From an uncultured Amylibacter sp. (GTDB lineage: Bacteria; Pseudomonadota; Alphaproteobacteria; Rhodobacterales; Rhodobacteraceae): 64,000 nucleotides of DNA. The stretch covers positions 1,571,747 to 1,635,746 of the forward strand of contig CANMGS010000001.1 of assembly GCA_947497475.1 (NCBI GenBank), in the 5' to 3' direction. Position numbers and translations under genes: made by a program. Below are positions 33,144-40,202 of the stretch, piece after piece. The notes beneath the pieces are model-generated. The model saw only the letters and a program-made list of their open reading frames with translations, did not search any database and had not been told where the DNA came from. Positions within the stretch are counted from its first letter, which is position 1; the number at the start of each line of letters is the position of its first letter.

Positions 33144-33218
33144 GCTGCTGTAGCTCAGTGGTAGAGCGCGTCATTGGTAATGACGAGGTCGGGAGTTCAA
33201 TTCTCCCCAGCAGCACCA
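33144..33218 (+). tRNA. tRNA-Thr (GGT)
   Basis: The sequence folds as a cloverleaf: acceptor GCTGCTG with CAGCAGC, D-arm GCTC...GAGC, anticodon stem CGTCA/TGACG with loop TTGGTAA (anticodon GGT), T-arm with GAGTTCAATTC, discriminator A and encoded CCA. Confidence 0.97.
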
Positions 33219-33450
33219 GTTTTCTTAAATTTAAAAGGCCTCAAAGCTTTGCTTTTTTATGCAGCTCTTTGATTTTATGTACGCATAGGTTTGCCTTTGT
33301 GAAAAAAAACATGTGGGAGTTGGTAGTTTGTAAAAACTCTAATTAGGCTCACCCCAACTAATGATTACCAAAATCATCTGCGGTTAAAATAGCTGCTTTG
33401 GCTGTTTTTTGATACATGTGAAATCAAACAAGATTTTGAAGGGCGACTTA

Positions 33451-34677
33451 ATGCATATTGAGGAAGTTGATACCGTCGTAATTGGTGGTGGCCAAGCAGG
33501 CTTAGCCATGAGCGAACACCTTAGTAATGCGGGTATCGAACATCTAGTTCTTGAAAAGAATAGAATTGCTGAACGGTGGAGAACTGCGAGGTGGGATTCA
33601 TTGGTTGCAAATGGCCCTGCATGGCATGACAGGTTTCCAACAAAAGAATTTTCATGTTCTGGCCCTGATGATTTCCCAACAAAGGATGGGGTGGTTAAAT
33701 ATTTTGAAGAGTTCGCTGATCAGATAAGTGCACCTATTAGATGTGGCGTTAATGTAGATGCAGTGCATCAGCTTTCAAATGTAGAGGGTTTTAAGCTGCA
33801 GACTTCTGACGGGGAAATTAAGGCAAAGAATATCGTAGCCGCTACTGGTCCTTTCCAAATACCTGTTATTCCACCTGTCATTCCAGACACCGCTAATGTT
33901 ACCCAAATGCATTCTACAAGTTACGACAACCCAAAGAGTTTACCTCAAGGTGCTGTCTTGGTTGTGGGTGCGGGTTCATCTGGTTCGCAGATAGCAGATG
34001 AGCTGCTGCGCTCTGGAAAAGAGGTTTATCTTTCAGTTGGACCTCATGATCGTCCGCCAAGAGGGTATCGGGGTAAGGATTTCGTATGGTGGCTTGGTGT
34101 GTTGGGTAAATGGCAAATGAAAACACCACCAGCTGGCAGAGAGCATGTAACGATTGCAGTCAGTGGTGCGCATGGCGGTCACACAGTAGATTTCAGAGAA
34201 TTCGCATCACGGGGCATGACCCTTTTAGGAATGACACAGGATTTCAAAGATGACGTGCTTTTTTTTGCGCCTGACCTTGCCGCGAATATAGCTGAAGGTG
34301 ATGCAAACTATTTATCCCTTCTCGAAGAGGCGGATGTTTATATTCAGAAAAACAATCTTGATATGCCCGAAGAACCAGAAGCAAAAATCATTGGATCTGA
34401 TCCTGAAGCTGTGAGCAATCCTATTCTTGAGCTGAATTTATCAAAGGCAAATATTACAACTGTCATTTGGGCAACGGGTTTTGTACAAGATTTTAGTTGG
34501 CTAAATGTTGATACCTTTAATGAAAAAGGTGTGCCGCAACATGATCGTGGCGTTTCTAAAGTGGATGGTGTTTATTTCCTAGGATTACCATGGCTGTCTA
34601 TGCGCGGGTCTTCCTTTATATGGGGTGTGTGGGAAGACGCAAAATATCTTGCAAGCCATATTGCGAAACGGATTTGA
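33451..34677 (+). CDS. Flavin-containing monooxygenase-like oxidoreductase
   Basis: The 408-residue protein has the FAD-binding motif VVIGGGQAGLAMSEHL at the start and an NADPH-binding motif VVGAGSSGSQIADELL near residue 170. The ARWDSLVANGPAWHDRFP and WATGF segments are typical of CzcO/YUCCA-like monooxygenases. It probably oxygenates a soft nitrogen, sulfur or ketone group of an unknown substrate. GAAGGG lies upstream of the ATG at 33451; the longer frame begins at 33409. It is followed by the M20 deacetylase after 19 bases, so both may belong to the catabolic cluster. Confidence 0.82.
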   Translation: MHIEEVDTVVIGGGQAGLAMSEHLSNAGIEHLVLEKNRIAERWRTARWDSLVANGPAWHDRFPTKEFSCSGPDDFPTKDGVVKYFEEFADQISAPIRCGVNVDAVHQLSNVEGFKLQTSDGEIKAKNIVAATGPFQIPVIPPVIPDTANVTQMHSTSYDNPKSLPQGAVLVVGAGSSGSQIADELLRSGKEVYLSVGPHDRPPRGYRGKDFVWWLGVLGKWQMKTPPAGREHVTIAVSGAHGGHTVDFREFASRGMTLLGMTQDFKDDVLFFAPDLAANIAEGDANYLSLLEEADVYIQKNNLDMPEEPEAKIIGSDPEAVSNPILELNLSKANITTVIWATGFVQDFSWLNVDTFNEKGVPQHDRGVSKVDGVYFLGLPWLSMRGSSFIWGVWEDAKYLASHIAKRI

Positions 34678-34696
34678 TCCTAAAGTTTGAGAACAT

Positions 34697-35851
34697 ATGA
34701 AGACAAAAGACATACTAAGAGATTTAATTGCTTTTGAGACCGTTAGTTCGCAGTCAAATCGCTCGTTAATTGATTATTGTGCTGATTTGTTAAAATCGGC
34801 AGGCGCAGATGTTGCGATAATAACTGATCCTATAGAAAATAAAGCAAACTTATACGCGACGATTGGACCATCTGACTTATCTGGCGTTCTATTGTCGGGG
34901 CATACAGATGTTGTCCCTGTTGAAGGGCAAGCATGGACGGTCCCTGCCTTTAAGATGACTGAGGCAGATGGCAAATTATTTGGCCGCGGTACAACGGATA
35001 TGAAAGGGTTTGTCGCAAGCGTGTTATCGACTGCTCTTAAAGCAAGTAATATAAGTTTAAAAACACCACTCCATATTGGATTATCCTACGATGAAGAGAT
35101 CGGCTGTATTGGTGTGCGCTCTATGATTGATATGTTGGCTGATGCTCCCTTTCGCCCTGCTATGTGTATTGTTGGCGAACCAACATTAATGGCCGTTGCA
35201 ACAGGGCATAAGGGTAAGAGTGCATACCAAGTGAATTGTACTGGTAGGGAAGGGCATTCTGCACTTTCTCCAAATGCTTTGAATGCCATCCATTTGGCCT
35301 GTGATATGATTTCGTTCATCCGTGATTTGCAAAAAGAAATAGAAAGCACCTCTATACGTGATGATGATTATGACATTCCATATACAACACTTCATGTAGG
35401 TAAAATTGAAGGTGGTGTTGCTTTAAATATAGTGCCGAACCAGGCAGGGTTCAGTTTCGAGATTAGGAACTTGATTGGTGATGACCCAGGAGCGTTGTTA
35501 GATAAAATAAACCAACATGCTGAAGCCTTACTTGAACCAATACGCACAGAATACCCCGAAGCGAAAATAGAGGTTACACTAACTAACTCTTATCCACCCT
35601 TAAATACTTCTAAAGATGCTGAGGTCGTAAGTTTTGTTAAATCCCTAATAGGATCAAATGCGACTATAAAAGTGGCTTTCGGAACTGAAGGTGGTTTATT
35701 CTCATCGCAACTTGGCATCCCCACAGTGATCTGTGGACCTGGTTCAATGGAGCAAGGCCATAAACCTGATGAGTATGTGAGTGTTGAACAATTAGATAAA
35801 TGCGATGCTATGCTTGATGCTTTACTGCATAGGTTGCTTATTGGTCTTTAA
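34697..35851 (+). CDS. M20-family deacetylase, ArgE-like
   Basis: The 384-residue zinc hydrolase shows the M20 metal-binding motifs: GHTDVVPVEGQAW, GRGTTDMKGF, YDEEIGCIG with the catalytic glutamate, GEPT and the terminal GPGSMEQGHKPDEYV. It is closest in pattern to acetylornithine deacetylase and related N-acyl amino acid hydrolases. Context beside Rieske and RidA genes suggests a catabolic N-deacylation (for example of an N-formyl or N-acyl ring-cleavage product) rather than arginine synthesis. It overlaps the LysR gene tail to tail by four bases. Confidence 0.88.
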   Translation: MKTKDILRDLIAFETVSSQSNRSLIDYCADLLKSAGADVAIITDPIENKANLYATIGPSDLSGVLLSGHTDVVPVEGQAWTVPAFKMTEADGKLFGRGTTDMKGFVASVLSTALKASNISLKTPLHIGLSYDEEIGCIGVRSMIDMLADAPFRPAMCIVGEPTLMAVATGHKGKSAYQVNCTGREGHSALSPNALNAIHLACDMISFIRDLQKEIESTSIRDDDYDIPYTTLHVGKIEGGVALNIVPNQAGFSFEIRNLIGDDPGALLDKINQHAEALLEPIRTEYPEAKIEVTLTNSYPPLNTSKDAEVVSFVKSLIGSNATIKVAFGTEGGLFSSQLGIPTVICGPGSMEQGHKPDEYVSVEQLDKCDAMLDALLHRLLIGL

Positions 35852-36780
35852 TTGGGCAGCACAACACCTGGTAAACCATTTGTTTTGACGTGACTTTGCA
35901 CATGTTCAAAGAAGGCTTCGACAATCCGCGAACGGTGATCCACTTGTTTGGTTACTAAGCCCAATACAAGCGGGTGAATGTCATCTTGAAGGCTTCGAAA
36001 TTCCAATTTCTCTCCGTCTGGTGCAAATTCAGATTTTGTCCGCATATTAACAAGGCTATAGCCATATCCATTCGCAACAAGGCTGCGAACGACTGACAAA
36101 TCGGATGTCCGCTCCATAATGTTTGGTCGCACGCCATTAGATTGAAAAACAGATAAGAAGTACTCACGGCTAATTGGCAAATCAAGCAGGATCATAGCTT
36201 CATCTTCTAGGTCACTTAAAGACACCGATGGTTTTCTTGATAGGGCATGCCCAGCAGGTAACATTACATATGGCGGCAAAGATATAATCTTATTGAAATG
36301 TACGTCCTTTGGGATCTCCATTTCATATGTAATTGCTACGTCGATTTCTGCACGGCCTAGCATGTTAAACAAATCAACCTGATGCCCTTCATGCAAGGTG
36401 ACTGACGCATCTGGGTATTTAGTTTCAAAAGATCTGCGAATTGCTGCGCTAATCAAAGGGGCGACTGTTGTCAGAACTCCTATAGAAATTGGCCCTCGTG
36501 GTTTGTCCGAAATATCGCCCGCTAGATCGTTTAACGCAGCCGCATCATCCAAGATACGTTTTGCTTCGTTGAATATACGCTGTCCCCCTGGAGTAAGAGA
36601 TAAGCCTTGGGCATGATGTCGGACGAATATCTGTATGCCGAATTCTGCTTCTAGCTGACTGATTGCAGCAGATATCGATGGCGACGAAACATTCACACGT
36701 TCCGATGCAAGTGCAATTGTTCCTGCCTCACCGACAGCAACAAGATATTCCAACTGTCTGAACGTAAAGCGTAAAGGCAT
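35848..36780 (-). CDS. LysR-type transcriptional regulator
   Basis: The 310-residue protein begins with a winged helix (FTFRQLEYLVAVGEAGTIAL, SPSISAAISQLEAEFG) followed by a periplasmic-binding-protein-like effector domain. It lies 37 bases downstream of the Rieske gene on the same strand, so it is probably the last gene of the catabolic operon and regulates it. A likely target is the dyad at 40371-40393 ahead of the first operon gene. Confidence 0.9.
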   Translation of the reverse strand: MPLRFTFRQLEYLVAVGEAGTIALASERVNVSSPSISAAISQLEAEFGIQIFVRHHAQGLSLTPGGQRIFNEAKRILDDAAALNDLAGDISDKPRGPISIGVLTTVAPLISAAIRRSFETKYPDASVTLHEGHQVDLFNMLGRAEIDVAITYEMEIPKDVHFNKIISLPPYVMLPAGHALSRKPSVSLSDLEDEAMILLDLPISREYFLSVFQSNGVRPNIMERTSDLSVVRSLVANGYGYSLVNMRTKSEFAPDGEKLEFRSLQDDIHPLVLGLVTKQVDHRSRIVEAFFEHVQSHVKTNGLPGVVLPN

Positions 36781-36817
36781 AAAGATTTATCACCTGAAAC
36801 TAATCGTAAAGCAATGA

Positions 36818-37972
36818 TTAGGTGTTGTGTTTCGCGAGCCACAAAAGGAAATCGTGCACTGTGCCTTCGTAGTCAGGTCCAGCCAAAGGCCCGCCGGTAG
36901 CATGGATTGAGCCAAATGCAGATTGCATAATCTCTAACTTTTCACGATCTTCCCTATTAACATCTTCCCATAAAGCAATGCGTTGGTTGATTGTATCTTG
37001 GTCAAATTCATCGCCATAAACAGACATTGTCCATCGCACTTCAATTGAATCTGCTGTTTGTGGTCGAATTGAAAGAGATACTAAAAGTGATGCCGCAATA
37101 CTGACCACTTGGCATGGGAAAACCGCAAATAATGTTGAACGATGTTGGTCTTTGGCAGAAAGGCCTGGTGCTCCTTGTCCTCGTGATGGAATATCTTGAG
37201 GGTAATTTGCATAGTAACTTGTAAAACTATCACCAGAGGCAGCTTTTTCGCTTAATCCAGTTGGCGTATATCCATGTAACGTTTGTGGGTGCACAACCGA
37301 TAAATGATAACCTTCCATGAAATTTTCCACGAGACATTTCCAATTCGTTTTCCAAACCTCTATGGCTGAATGAACGATCTTGTAATTATCTGGCTCATAA
37401 GCACCAATGAGCGTTTCAAGTCCTGTAAGCTCTTTGTCTATATCAGTTGGGTTTTGATCTAAGCATACATAGACAAATCCAAAACGTTCAACGCAGGCAA
37501 ACTCTCCAAGTTTACATGTTTGGGGATCAAAGCCTTCGTTTTCCATACGTGTTGCACGTAACAAAGTACCATCTGTGCCATATGTCCATGCATGATATGG
37601 GCATACGAAACGTTTGCTGTTTCCTTGACCTTCAACCAATCGCATGCCGCGATGCCGGCATACATTAGATAGGGCTTTGATACCTGATGCATCTCTAACA
37701 ATGATCAATGGTTCGCCCAATAGGTGAAGCGTTAAATAATCACCTTCTTGTGCAAGTTCATCAGCACGCCCAGCGCAATGCCAACCGCTTTTTAATACAG
37801 TCGCGCATTCATAATCAAAATAAGCTTGGTCGGCATAAAAATGACCGGGAAGTCCAAAAGGAGCTCCAGCTGGAGCTGCCGCAATTGTGGTCATTTGTTC
37901 CTTCATCGCCTCAACATGTGGCAATGCTTCAAAGAGATTGTTATCTTGTATTGTCATCCCCTGGAACTCCAT
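36818..37972 (-). CDS. Rieske non-haem iron oxygenase, alpha subunit (operon distal)
   Basis: The 384-residue protein has the Rieske [2Fe-2S] ligands in CRHRGMRLVEG and CPYHAWTYG and the mononuclear iron site in ENFMEGYHLSVVH. It is of the GbcA/stachydrine demethylase-like class that acts on quaternary or N-methyl amines, though the substrate is unknown. No reductase is encoded nearby. It overlaps the DUF1028 gene by 32 bases; the alternative ATG at 37957 would cut this to 17. It is the second Rieske gene of the cluster. Confidence 0.9.
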   Translation of the reverse strand: MEFQGMTIQDNNLFEALPHVEAMKEQMTTIAAAPAGAPFGLPGHFYADQAYFDYECATVLKSGWHCAGRADELAQEGDYLTLHLLGEPLIIVRDASGIKALSNVCRHRGMRLVEGQGNSKRFVCPYHAWTYGTDGTLLRATRMENEGFDPQTCKLGEFACVERFGFVYVCLDQNPTDIDKELTGLETLIGAYEPDNYKIVHSAIEVWKTNWKCLVENFMEGYHLSVVHPQTLHGYTPTGLSEKAASGDSFTSYYANYPQDIPSRGQGAPGLSAKDQHRSTLFAVFPCQVVSIAASLLVSLSIRPQTADSIEVRWTMSVYGDEFDQDTINQRIALWEDVNREDREKLEIMQSAFGSIHATGGPLAGPDYEGTVHDFLLWLAKHNT

Positions 37973-38624
37973 AAGATGGCGCTTCTCTTGGGTCTAGCGC
38001 GCGTTGAATATATGCATCTAGTTGTGGTTTGTAGACATCCCATGCTTTGGCAATTGCTTCGATTGGGCAATCTTCTGTCCAGTCACATCTTAGATCTGCA
38101 ACTGGCCATGAAACGTTATCGCAAATTTGCATCCCTGCGGAATGAACGGGGCCAGCTTCGCCTCCAGCTGCAAGACCTGATTGCATTGCAGCGATTAATC
38201 GATCACCAATGTGCCCAGATGTAGATAAGAAACCATCTACAATCGCCTGAGGCACATTTTTATTGGCAAGCAGGTTACCCGCTGAAATCACATCTTGGCC
38301 CGATGCGTCAGTCCATATTCCCAATGAGTGCGCCCCAGAGTGAATTCCTGTATGGCCATTGGCATCGATTGCTAGAACCTGACGGTAATCCTTATATTCA
38401 CTTTGAGCTATAGCCTCTGCAATCGCATCGCTAGCGTTCATGCCCGTTTGCATAAGGTCCAAGGTAAGCGGCCCTAATGTAGGGTCCGTGATGTTTTGAC
38501 TTGCGACAGCACCCACACCCGCGCGCGTATACGAACACCGTGCCGCAACCGCTGGCGAAGAAGATGATATGGCTACGCCAAACATTCCAGTTTCTGTGCA
38601 ACGGGCGACAACAGAAAACGTCAT
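37941..38624 (-). CDS. DUF1028 family protein
   Basis: The 227-residue protein starts with the DUF1028 signature MTFSVVARCTETGMFGVAIS and has GVGAVASQNITDPTLGP and later GNLLANKNVPQAIVDGF. DUF1028 has an Ntn-hydrolase-like fold and an unassigned activity, plausibly amide or lactam hydrolysis. Its ATG overlaps the RidA stop by one base (TAATG), and it overlaps the next Rieske gene, so translation is coupled in all three. Confidence 0.9.
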   Translation of the reverse strand: MTFSVVARCTETGMFGVAISSSSPAVAARCSYTRAGVGAVASQNITDPTLGPLTLDLMQTGMNASDAIAEAIAQSEYKDYRQVLAIDANGHTGIHSGAHSLGIWTDASGQDVISAGNLLANKNVPQAIVDGFLSTSGHIGDRLIAAMQSGLAAGGEAGPVHSAGMQICDNVSWPVADLRCDWTEDCPIEAIAKAWDVYKPQLDAYIQRALDPREAPSYGVPGDDNTR

Positions 38625-39037
38625 TATGGAATTACCGCCGTTGCATCAATTTCCACCAACCAATCGGGCCGCGCTAATGCCTGAACAACAAGCCCTGTTG
38701 AAACAGGATGAACGCCTTTGATATATTCGCCCATAGTGCGGTAAACAGCTTCGCGGTGCCGCGTATCCGTGATATACACGACCACTTTCACAAGATGTTC
38801 CATTTCACCGCCGGCTTCTTCTATAAGCTGTTTAATATTTTGCATAACCTTGTGTGTTTGTTCCGCTGGATCATGGCTTTCAATATTTTTCGCATCATCA
38901 AGGTCTTGTGGACATTGTCCCCGTAACCAAACAGTTTTCCCACCTTGGGTTACAACGGCTTGGCATAGATCATTATCAAGGTTTTGCTCTGGATAAGTAT
39001 CCTTGGTGTTGAATTTACGTATACGTGTGTGAGCCAA
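38624..39037 (-). CDS. RidA-family protein lacking the canonical arginine
   Basis: The 137-residue protein has the YjgF/RidA fold signatures VTQGGKTVWLRGQCP, MEHLVKVVVYITD and LVEIDATAVI. RidA deaminates reactive enamines and imines. In RidA the active-site arginine lies in a motif like PARSCVEV; here the aligned residues are PVSTGLVV, so the arginine is replaced by serine. This points to a divergent Rid subfamily rather than housekeeping RidA. It overlaps the DUF1028 gene by one base and likely acts on a pathway intermediate. Confidence 0.9.
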   Translation of the reverse strand: MAHTRIRKFNTKDTYPEQNLDNDLCQAVVTQGGKTVWLRGQCPQDLDDAKNIESHDPAEQTHKVMQNIKQLIEEAGGEMEHLVKVVVYITDTRHREAVYRTMGEYIKGVHPVSTGLVVQALARPDWLVEIDATAVIP

Positions 39038-39077
39038 AATTATTTTCCTATCTTAGCGTTATAAATGCATCGGAATG

Positions 39078-40202
39078 TCATTCCGCACGTTGCATCCTAT
39101 CATTAATATAACAGGCGAAGTCATAGTTTGGCCGTTCTAAATGCGACAAGTGTCCTGGTTTTGCTGATTGTGAACACAAGCCGCGATAAACCTTTTCTGT
39201 GCAACCTTTGTCCTCGACGTTTACTTCATCAAGAAGTGTTTTAAGCTTGGTGAAATTATCTTGCGCATCTTTGTCATCCACATAATATTGCGACATACCA
39301 CCACCAAAACCAATTTTGACCTGACCAACGCCATGCGGATGCAATGTAAGGTACCAGAAGTAACCAGGTGTTAAGGTAATAAGCAGGCTTGGGTAAATCG
39401 CTAACAAATATGTCATACGACGGCGCTCACCTTCCAGCCGCGTATTATTTGGATGTGCCATCGCTATTTCCAGTGAATCATCCTTAAGAATTGTATGGTA
39501 ATTGAAAGCATCCTCACCAGGCGGGCATATCATCTCTTCAAGCTTTGAAAGGCCCCCAATCGTACCTGCGTGACACACCGGCAGATGATAACTCTCCATG
39601 AAATTTTCAGCCAAAACTTTCCAGTTTGTATCCCAGATATGTGTTTCATAAAATGTCTCGGTATAAGAAGACATATCATAGTCACCGACCAGCTCTTCTA
39701 CTTTCTTGAGCTCTTCTGAAACAGGTTTTGCTTGCGGATTTAATGTTACGAAAACCCAACCCAACCATTCTTCGCATTTGACTTGAGGCAATTTATAATT
39801 GTCTTTGCAAAAACCCTCATTCAAGGTCATCGCTGGTGCACCGCGTAATGAACCATCTAAATTATATGTCCAAGCATGATATGGGCATACAATTGAGCGT
39901 GTATTGCCGCGCCCCTCTAAAAGCGTAGACATGCGGTGCAGACAAACATTGGACATTGCTTTTAGATCACCATGTTGATCACGTAATACGATGATTGGTT
40001 GCTCAGCTAGATCTAATGTGACGTAATCGCCAGATTTTGCCAATGAAGATGAACGTCCAACACAGAACCAATCTTTCGAAAAAATATCCTTTAACTCACG
40101 TTCAAGAAAATCCTCTGATGTGTAAACAGAAGGTGGCATTGCGCGCGCTTGCTCAAACGGAACTGAAACGTTTTGTTTTAATTCGGAAACTGATTCAGTC
40201 AT
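39078..40202 (-). CDS. Rieske non-haem iron oxygenase, alpha subunit (operon proximal)
   Basis: The 374-residue protein has the Rieske ligands CLHRMSTLLEG and CPYHAWTYN and the iron site ENFMESYHLPVCH. The ATG at 40202 has GGAGAGCG upstream; the longer frame begins with an unlikely N-terminus. It is the first gene of the minus-strand unit that continues with RidA, DUF1028, the second Rieske gene and LysR. Both Rieske proteins are alpha subunits without beta subunits, as in GbcA- and CntA-like oxygenases, so electron transfer must come from elsewhere in the genome. Confidence 0.9.
   Translation of the reverse strand: MTESVSELKQNVSVPFEQARAMPPSVYTSEDFLERELKDIFSKDWFCVGRSSSLAKSGDYVTLDLAEQPIIVLRDQHGDLKAMSNVCLHRMSTLLEGRGNTRSIVCPYHAWTYNLDGSLRGAPAMTLNEGFCKDNYKLPQVKCEEWLGWVFVTLNPQAKPVSEELKKVEELVGDYDMSSYTETFYETHIWDTNWKVLAENFMESYHLPVCHAGTIGGLSKLEEMICPPGEDAFNYHTILKDDSLEIAMAHPNNTRLEGERRRMTYLLAIYPSLLITLTPGYFWYLTLHPHGVGQVKIGFGGGMSQYYVDDKDAQDNFTKLKTLLDEVNVEDKGCTEKVYRGLCSQSAKPGHLSHLERPNYDFACYINDRMQRAE

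Follow-up and report, generated by a model that had tools for sequence, protein, structure and literature searches.

A cluster of seven genes at positions 33451-40202 of a 64,000-nucleotide stretch of DNA from an uncultured Amylibacter sp. of the Rhodobacteraceae (assembly GCA_947497475.1, contig CANMGS010000001.1, positions 1,571,747 to 1,635,746; hereafter the window, meaning this whole stretch) appears to join a hin-type module for the degradation of imidazole-4-acetate (ImAA), as in histamine catabolism, to an entry step carried out by Rieske oxygenases. We put the probability of this reading, which is drawn from homology and gene order, at about 60%. The original prediction had seen a catabolic unit here and had noted a resemblance to the reported homarine operon of marine roseobacters. 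The catabolic nature of the unit is supported, but the nearest described module appears from sequence comparison to be that of the hin (imidazoleacetate/histamine) pathway, flavin monooxygenase included, and homarine is disfavoured.

In the pathway that we propose, the module would comprise the flavin monooxygenase as HinF, the RidA-family protein as HinL, the DUF1028 protein as HinH and the M20 deacylase as HinG, together with a HinK-like LysR regulator. It would hydroxylate ImAA, the ring would be opened and hydrolysed to give N-formylaspartate, and this would be split into aspartate and formate. Rieske oxygenase 1 (Rieske 1), sometimes followed by Rieske oxygenase 2 (Rieske 2), would supply the ImAA from a methylated imidazole. 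If it is as imidazoleacetate that the product feeds the module, the simplest entry reaction would be an oxidative N-demethylation with loss of formaldehyde, and a second Rieske oxygenase would suit a second methyl group. Example substrates would be methylimidazoleacetate, the mammalian end product of histamine, and, in two steps, 1,3-dimethylimidazolium-4-acetate.

According to excerpts from two papers on the Pseudomonas system, HinCD convert histamine to ImAA, HinFLHG take ImAA to aspartate and the LysR regulator HinK binds ImAA (PMC8231116), with HinF an FAD-monooxygenase (EC 1.14.13.5), HinL an enamine deaminase, HinH an amidase and HinG an enzyme of EC 3.5.1.8 (PMC6467879). A Klebsiella aerogenes record encodes an aminotransferase, an aldehyde dehydrogenase, LysR, a monooxygenase, RidA, DUF1028 and argE as consecutive genes. 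The window monooxygenase is 62% identical to its counterpart there (the reference being Klebsiella, not HinF of Pseudomonas putida), and identities are 57% for RidA, 54% for DUF1028, 44% for M20 against argE and 33% for LysR. As in that record, the RidA gene lies beside the DUF1028 gene, the two overlapping by one base in the window. The window DUF1028 protein is predicted to be HinH by its place in the operon rather than by comparison with P. putida sequences. For the LysR protein, the best solved relatives are 6m5f, presumably HinK, and 3fzv at 182 bits, with the next at 79 bits. The nine proteins scanned between 33.4 and 42.6 kb include no HinC, HinD or histamine dehydrogenase, the search for HinC/HinD being confined to this range. 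Relatives of the window DUF1028 protein also occur in 105 Klebsiella plasmid records; the one examined, a 791 kb K. aerogenes record, has the hin order. The module itself is known, and among the literature matches listed (titles and abstract openings) none names the cluster, describes a Rieske entry beside a hin module or ties a Rieske enzyme to methylimidazole catabolism. The word DUF1028 was not found in the literature searched.

The composition of the module was inventoried in 295 genomes of the same family as the window, about one per genus. DUF1028 matches at an E value of 1e-50 or better were found in 92 genomes, and strong cluster-type matches (>300 bits, the next scores being 236 and lower), which serve as the module marker, in 90. 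There are 93 places in all, the window and 92 others, each taken with up to 8 kb on either side, although several regions are ended by the contig. By fixed identity thresholds, these regions hold DUF1028 in 91 cases (both misses lie under its 45% threshold), RidA in 88, the monooxygenase in 69, LysR in 60, M20 in 46, Rieske 1 in 38 and Rieske 2 in 16; the first six of these families occur together in 16. The counts thus point to a RidA-DUF1028 core, usually with the monooxygenase and LysR and, in half of the regions, M20. Of the 38 module regions that have Rieske 1, 27 have the monooxygenase as well. Genes for Rieske 1, RidA, DUF1028, LysR and an NAD(P)/FAD oxidoreductase are also present on plasmids of Pseudosulfitobacter (P. 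pseudonitzschiae), Thioclava, Paracoccus, Tropicibacter (T. oceani) and Paraburkholderia, with argE on all but the last. Given its low count, and having no match in the four plasmid loci searched (L063, L064, L065 and L067), Rieske 2 is optional. On the Paracoccus plasmid, a different gene for a ring-hydroxylating oxygenase lies some 5 kb away.

With antisense-looking families set aside, the commonest new neighbours of the module are a polyamine-type ABC transporter ATPase (39 regions), permeases (29 and 23) and a binding protein (19). An aldehyde dehydrogenase is found in 13 regions and a family of 691-residue flavoproteins in 34; the member scanned is a histamine dehydrogenase by sequence (PDB 6de6, 1298 bits; 3k30, 821 bits). 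The polyamine-type ATPase is also present in 21 of these 34 regions. An HpaB-type monooxygenase and an HpaB-linked flavin reductase each occur in 10 of the 93 regions. Eight of the ten HpaB regions have no HinF-like match (L155, L162, L177, L187, L173, L186, L191 and L128), and it is possible that the two-component enzyme replaces HinF where a HinF-like gene is missing. At L047:10134-11306 (scanned in L047), a flavin reductase domain, the part counted in 10 of the 93 regions, is fused to a LysR substrate-binding domain with no DNA-binding part, and the same open reading frame family occurs in L015, L017, L019, L020, L021, L027 and L050. Such a fusion could be a reductase that the ligand of the pathway activates.

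Rieske 1 goes with the module. It occurs in 68 of the 295 genomes, 63 of which have the marker (odds ratio 93). Histamine dehydrogenase, called at an E value of 1e-250 or better (identity 55-100%), shows a similar pattern, with the marker in 47 of 50 genomes (odds ratio 74). Among the three exceptions, one (G166) has a DUF1028 match at a contig start (148/224 positions). Rieske 2 was found in 22 genomes, the marker in 21 of these and Rieske 1 likewise in 21. For the subunit typical of N-methylglutamate dehydrogenase (Mgd), the odds ratio with the marker is 3.3. Both Rieske 1 and histamine dehydrogenase are present in 31 of the 90 marker genomes, Rieske 1 only in 32, histamine dehydrogenase only in 16 and neither in 11. 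As 30 of the 31 genomes with both have one strong DUF1028 copy, the two entries seem to use one common module. Beside the module itself, Rieske 1 only was found in 31 of the 93 regions, histamine dehydrogenase only in 27, both in 7 and neither in 28. Mutual exclusion of the two was considered and discarded: it appears locally (Fisher p 0.004) and is absent genome-wide, where histamine dehydrogenase is found in 31 of 63 module holders with Rieske 1 versus 16 of 27 without (p 0.49). In the protein trees, the histamine dehydrogenase label changes 21 times for DUF1028 (93 rows), against 23.8 when shuffled, and 19 times for the monooxygenase (68 rows), against 20.0. The many switches indicate a shared core, with some clustering of Rieske-linked copies, the window monooxygenase among them.

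What, then, might the Rieske oxygenases do? For both, the best match among solved structures is carnitine monooxygenase, and both keep the Rieske iron-sulphur motif, the iron ligands and the Glu in ENFxExYHxxxxH. Among rows of 50% identity or more, the motif has its E in 39 of 40 for Rieske 1 and in 15 of 17 for Rieske 2. This Glu marks the CntA/GbcA class, whose enzymes act either on N-methyl groups or on the carbon that adjoins a quaternary nitrogen. The assignment to a Rieske class acting on N-methylated or quaternary amines, made earlier, therefore stands, with the proviso that the NCBIfam GbcA match of these proteins falls far under its cut-off. The substrate and reaction of Rieske 1 we infer: as CntA/GbcA-type oxygenases, the Rieske proteins would serve as the entry step, probably by removing N-methyl groups from a methylated imidazole. 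A more tentative proposal, for which the odds are somewhat less than even, is that Rieske 1 and Rieske 2 form a new pair of imidazole N-demethylases converting methylated imidazole acetates (methylimidazoleacetate; dimethylimidazolium betaines, e.g. zooanemonin) to imidazoleacetate. In the genome that contains the window, a third Rieske oxygenase gene adjoins one for a dimethylglycine-dehydrogenase-like protein (L058:3090-6953). This genome encodes three PF00175 proteins, one of them in an operon resembling the dimethylamine monooxygenase (dmm) genes.

Several observations weigh against a hin-type module fed by Rieske oxygenases. Only 38 of the 93 module regions have Rieske 1 inside the 8 kb flanks. 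A scan of named genomes for Rieske 1 gave 45 loci, and in 29 of them both RidA and DUF1028 are missing from the surroundings, some of these loci being ended by the contig. Five of the 68 Rieske 1 genomes are without the marker, and 14 Rieske 1 stretches situated away from the module or in module-less genomes (L204-L217) include a HinF-like protein in 2 and M20 in 2. Loci picked through Rieske 1 had suggested that it is a fixed core member, a view refuted by the regions picked through DUF1028. The cluster contains no gene for a partner reductase. The window's own genome has no histamine dehydrogenase match that reaches the level of the 50 other genomes, its best being 52%. Rieske 1 labels change less often than in shuffled trees, 18 times against 26.2 for DUF1028 (0 of 500 shuffles as low) and 13 against 17.5 for the monooxygenase (3 of 500), and the window monooxygenase falls in a starred set of three tree rows, all Rieske-only. 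As Rieske-linked rows cluster beyond chance, they may have a special substrate. The 52% match of the own genome is a flavoprotein resembling histamine and trimethylamine dehydrogenases (51-52%; L203:1610-10067) in a neighbourhood that looks carnitine-type by protein starts.

A homarine (N-methylpicolinate) operon would use the Rieske proteins to oxidize the pyridinium ring, and RidA, DUF1028 and M20 to release formate, leaving N-methylglutamate for Mgd. Ferrer-Gonzalez et al. (2026, Nat Microbiol 11:1531) published a conserved homarine pathway, and another paper cites that study for a role of Mgd. The operon is reportedly named homABCDER, five genes and a regulator, and carried by marine Rhodobacterales, with spread to SAR11 and SAR116. 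The two Rieske genes, RidA, DUF1028 and M20 with LysR would likewise come to six. We consider such an operon an unlikely identity for the cluster, yet some evidence fits it. In the own genome an Mgd-like operon lies next to the gene of an AraC regulator, and dmm- and mgs-like genes are present too; final steps on a formyl amino acid would suit RidA, DUF1028 and M20. Moreover, genome G187 has a unit of Rieske 1, Rieske 2, LysR and M20 (L210) without the monooxygenase. The 14 kb retrieved around that unit contain neither RidA nor DUF1028, and the sole strong DUF1028 gene of G187 sits beside histamine dehydrogenase on another contig, which speaks for the hin reading with one shared module. On the other hand, the flavin monooxygenase adjoining Rieske 1 in most module regions that have it would need a role, although this argument is weak because the monooxygenase adjoins so few of the 14 Rieske 1 copies elsewhere. 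Outside the family, a class-wide sample of 210 genomes gave four Rieske 1 matches, all paralogues of 36-41%, where the reported spread to SAR11 and SAR116 would predict more, these clades not being identified in the sample. The Mgd-type subunit, whose tier was set by score, occurs in 35 of the 68 Rieske 1 genomes. Its gene context was examined in 10 loci, and dmm genes adjoin three of four upper-tier loci (the fourth is ended by the contig) versus none of six in the lower tier. Co-occurrence with Mgd was tried as support for homarine and rejected: among genomes that hold the module, Mgd is about as frequent with Rieske 1 (32/63) as without it (13/27). These counts oppose a strict link, but homarine keeps some likelihood because another enzyme could act on N-methylglutamate. 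An excerpt of one paper reports that Ruegeria pomeroyi draws down homarine (PMC12817926). Its DUF1028 protein has no match above 71% in any of the 295 family genomes. Should the homarine reading be correct, the homarine and histamine pathways would share one ring-opening module.

Rieske 1 could also act on an imidazole compound by different chemistry, for example C-N cleavage of N-alpha-methylated histamine to imidazole acetaldehyde or ImAA plus methylamine, with Rieske 2 a partner of different role. That both Rieske proteins have carnitine monooxygenase, which cleaves the C-N bond of carnitine, as best solved relative is consistent with this, as are the dmm-, mgs- and mgd-like methylamine genes of the own genome. 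However, none of the nine window proteins scanned belongs to methylamine use and, judged by Mgd, Rieske 1 shows no tie to organisms that use methylamines; such cleavage is improbable. We favour a hin-type module with N-demethylating entry.

The properties of the RidA and DUF1028 proteins bear on how the ring would be opened. Classical RidA enamine deaminases are marked by a catalytic arginine in a YPAR loop, in place of which the window protein has HPVSTG. The loop reads H/Y-P-x-S/C/T-T-G in 82 of 88 rows, with five rows unmatched and one reading YPRHRA. Without the usual arginine, simple enamine hydrolysis is doubtful. The original prediction had RidA, DUF1028 and the deacylase cleaving an enamine or amide intermediate, and of this the amide-cleaving deacylase holds up whereas the enamine hydrolysis does not fare well. 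The structural model of the DUF1028 protein is nearest to 2imh (TM-score 0.78) and weakly resembles proteasome-type N-terminal nucleophile (Ntn) hydrolases (TM-score about 0.4). In 91 of the 93 regions the protein begins MTFS, as an N-terminal threonine nucleophile would require, and the model suggests an Ntn-type amidase with Thr2 as nucleophile.

The seven open reading frames are all intact, and their matches in Pfam and NCBIfam (Rieske plus Ring_hydroxyl_A twice, Ribonuc_L-PSP for RidA, DUF1028, LysR, M20 and FAD/NAD(P) oxidoreductase) agree with the families first assigned to them. The coordinates likewise bear out a minus-strand unit of overlapping genes, in the order Rieske 1, RidA, DUF1028, Rieske 2 and LysR, facing the M20 and monooxygenase genes. 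DUF1028 and Rieske 2 overlap by 32 bases given the Rieske 2 start in Table 1, and the M20 and LysR genes converge with 3' ends overlapping by 4 bases, the monooxygenase gene standing before that for M20. A TTG at 33409 is an alternative open start for the monooxygenase. Homologues of Rieske 1 align from about residue 30 of its longest frame (20 to 37 in most rows), which makes the end at 40202 reasonable.

Table 1. Genes of the cluster, with positions in the window.
Gene product	Position	Strand	Basis
HinF-like flavin (FAD/NAD(P)H) monooxygenase (putative)	33451-34677	+	Pfam Pyr_redox_3/FMO-like; 62% to Klebsiella aerogenes monooxygenase of hin-ordered locus
HinG-like M20 deacylase, predicted N-formylaspartate deformylase	34697-35851	+	NCBIfam acetylornithine deacetylase; 44% to Klebsiella argE_2 (hinG place)
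HinK-like LysR regulator	35848-36780	-	Pfam; 33% to Klebsiella LysR
Rieske oxygenase 2, optional second oxygenase	36818-37972	-	Pfam, solved relatives, motifs
DUF1028 protein at HinH place, predicted Ntn-type amidase, Thr2 nucleophile	37941-38624	-	Pfam; 54% to Klebsiella DUF1028
RidA-family protein, HinL-like, TTG start	38624-39037	-	Pfam; 57% to Klebsiella RidA
Rieske oxygenase 1, predicted entry enzyme	39078-40202	-	Pfam, solved relatives, motifs

All seven genes occur together again in L007-L011 and L037 (Tateyamaria sp. Alg231-49), so the arrangement is not due to chance; L006 has six of them, with no M20 match, and further loci hold parts of the set. At L034:9013-13393, copies of Rieske 1, Rieske 2 and LysR are in fragments, reflecting decay or assembly errors. 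Besides the window's genome, one more of its genus was sampled (G120); by the thresholds applied it lacks both the cluster DUF1028 and Rieske 1, and the cluster therefore seems accessory in the genus. A tRNA-Thr gene at 33144-33218 of the window, upstream of the monooxygenase gene, is a possible insertion point. A shared LysR box was sought between the two upstream regions, giving only one weak 14/17 match and unrelated palindromes.

If the proposed pathway is correct, histamine-type catabolism would reach methylated imidazoles in the 68 family genomes with Rieske 1 and the 22 with Rieske 2. The earlier label of an unknown substrate gives way to a pathway that can be tested. It predicts that imidazole catabolism is fed by one group of Rieske oxygenases, found in this family and also in certain Burkholderiales. 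DUF1028 would be tied to the amidase place in histamine catabolism.

How does the cluster compare with described systems? The hin module of Pseudomonas putida U and P. aeruginosa, with homologues in Brevibacterium, has the same five kinds of protein. Records of Klebsiella and Bradyrhizobium preserve its F-L-H-G order, and a number of family genomes, among them L104, L106 and L108, have F-L-H-LysR-G. In the window, by contrast, the monooxygenase and M20 genes form a second, convergent unit, and clusters of this kind have one or two Rieske oxygenases where hin has HinC/HinD or histamine dehydrogenase. With a homarine pathway the proposed route would have an N-methylated heterocycle in common, but the co-occurrence with Mgd is not as that pathway predicts. 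With CntA, GbcA and Stc2, the Rieske proteins share the Rieske and iron-site motifs, the Glu in ENFxExYH and the nearest solved structures, although likeness to the solved enzyme is limited to the first about 200-240 residues and the gene context differs.

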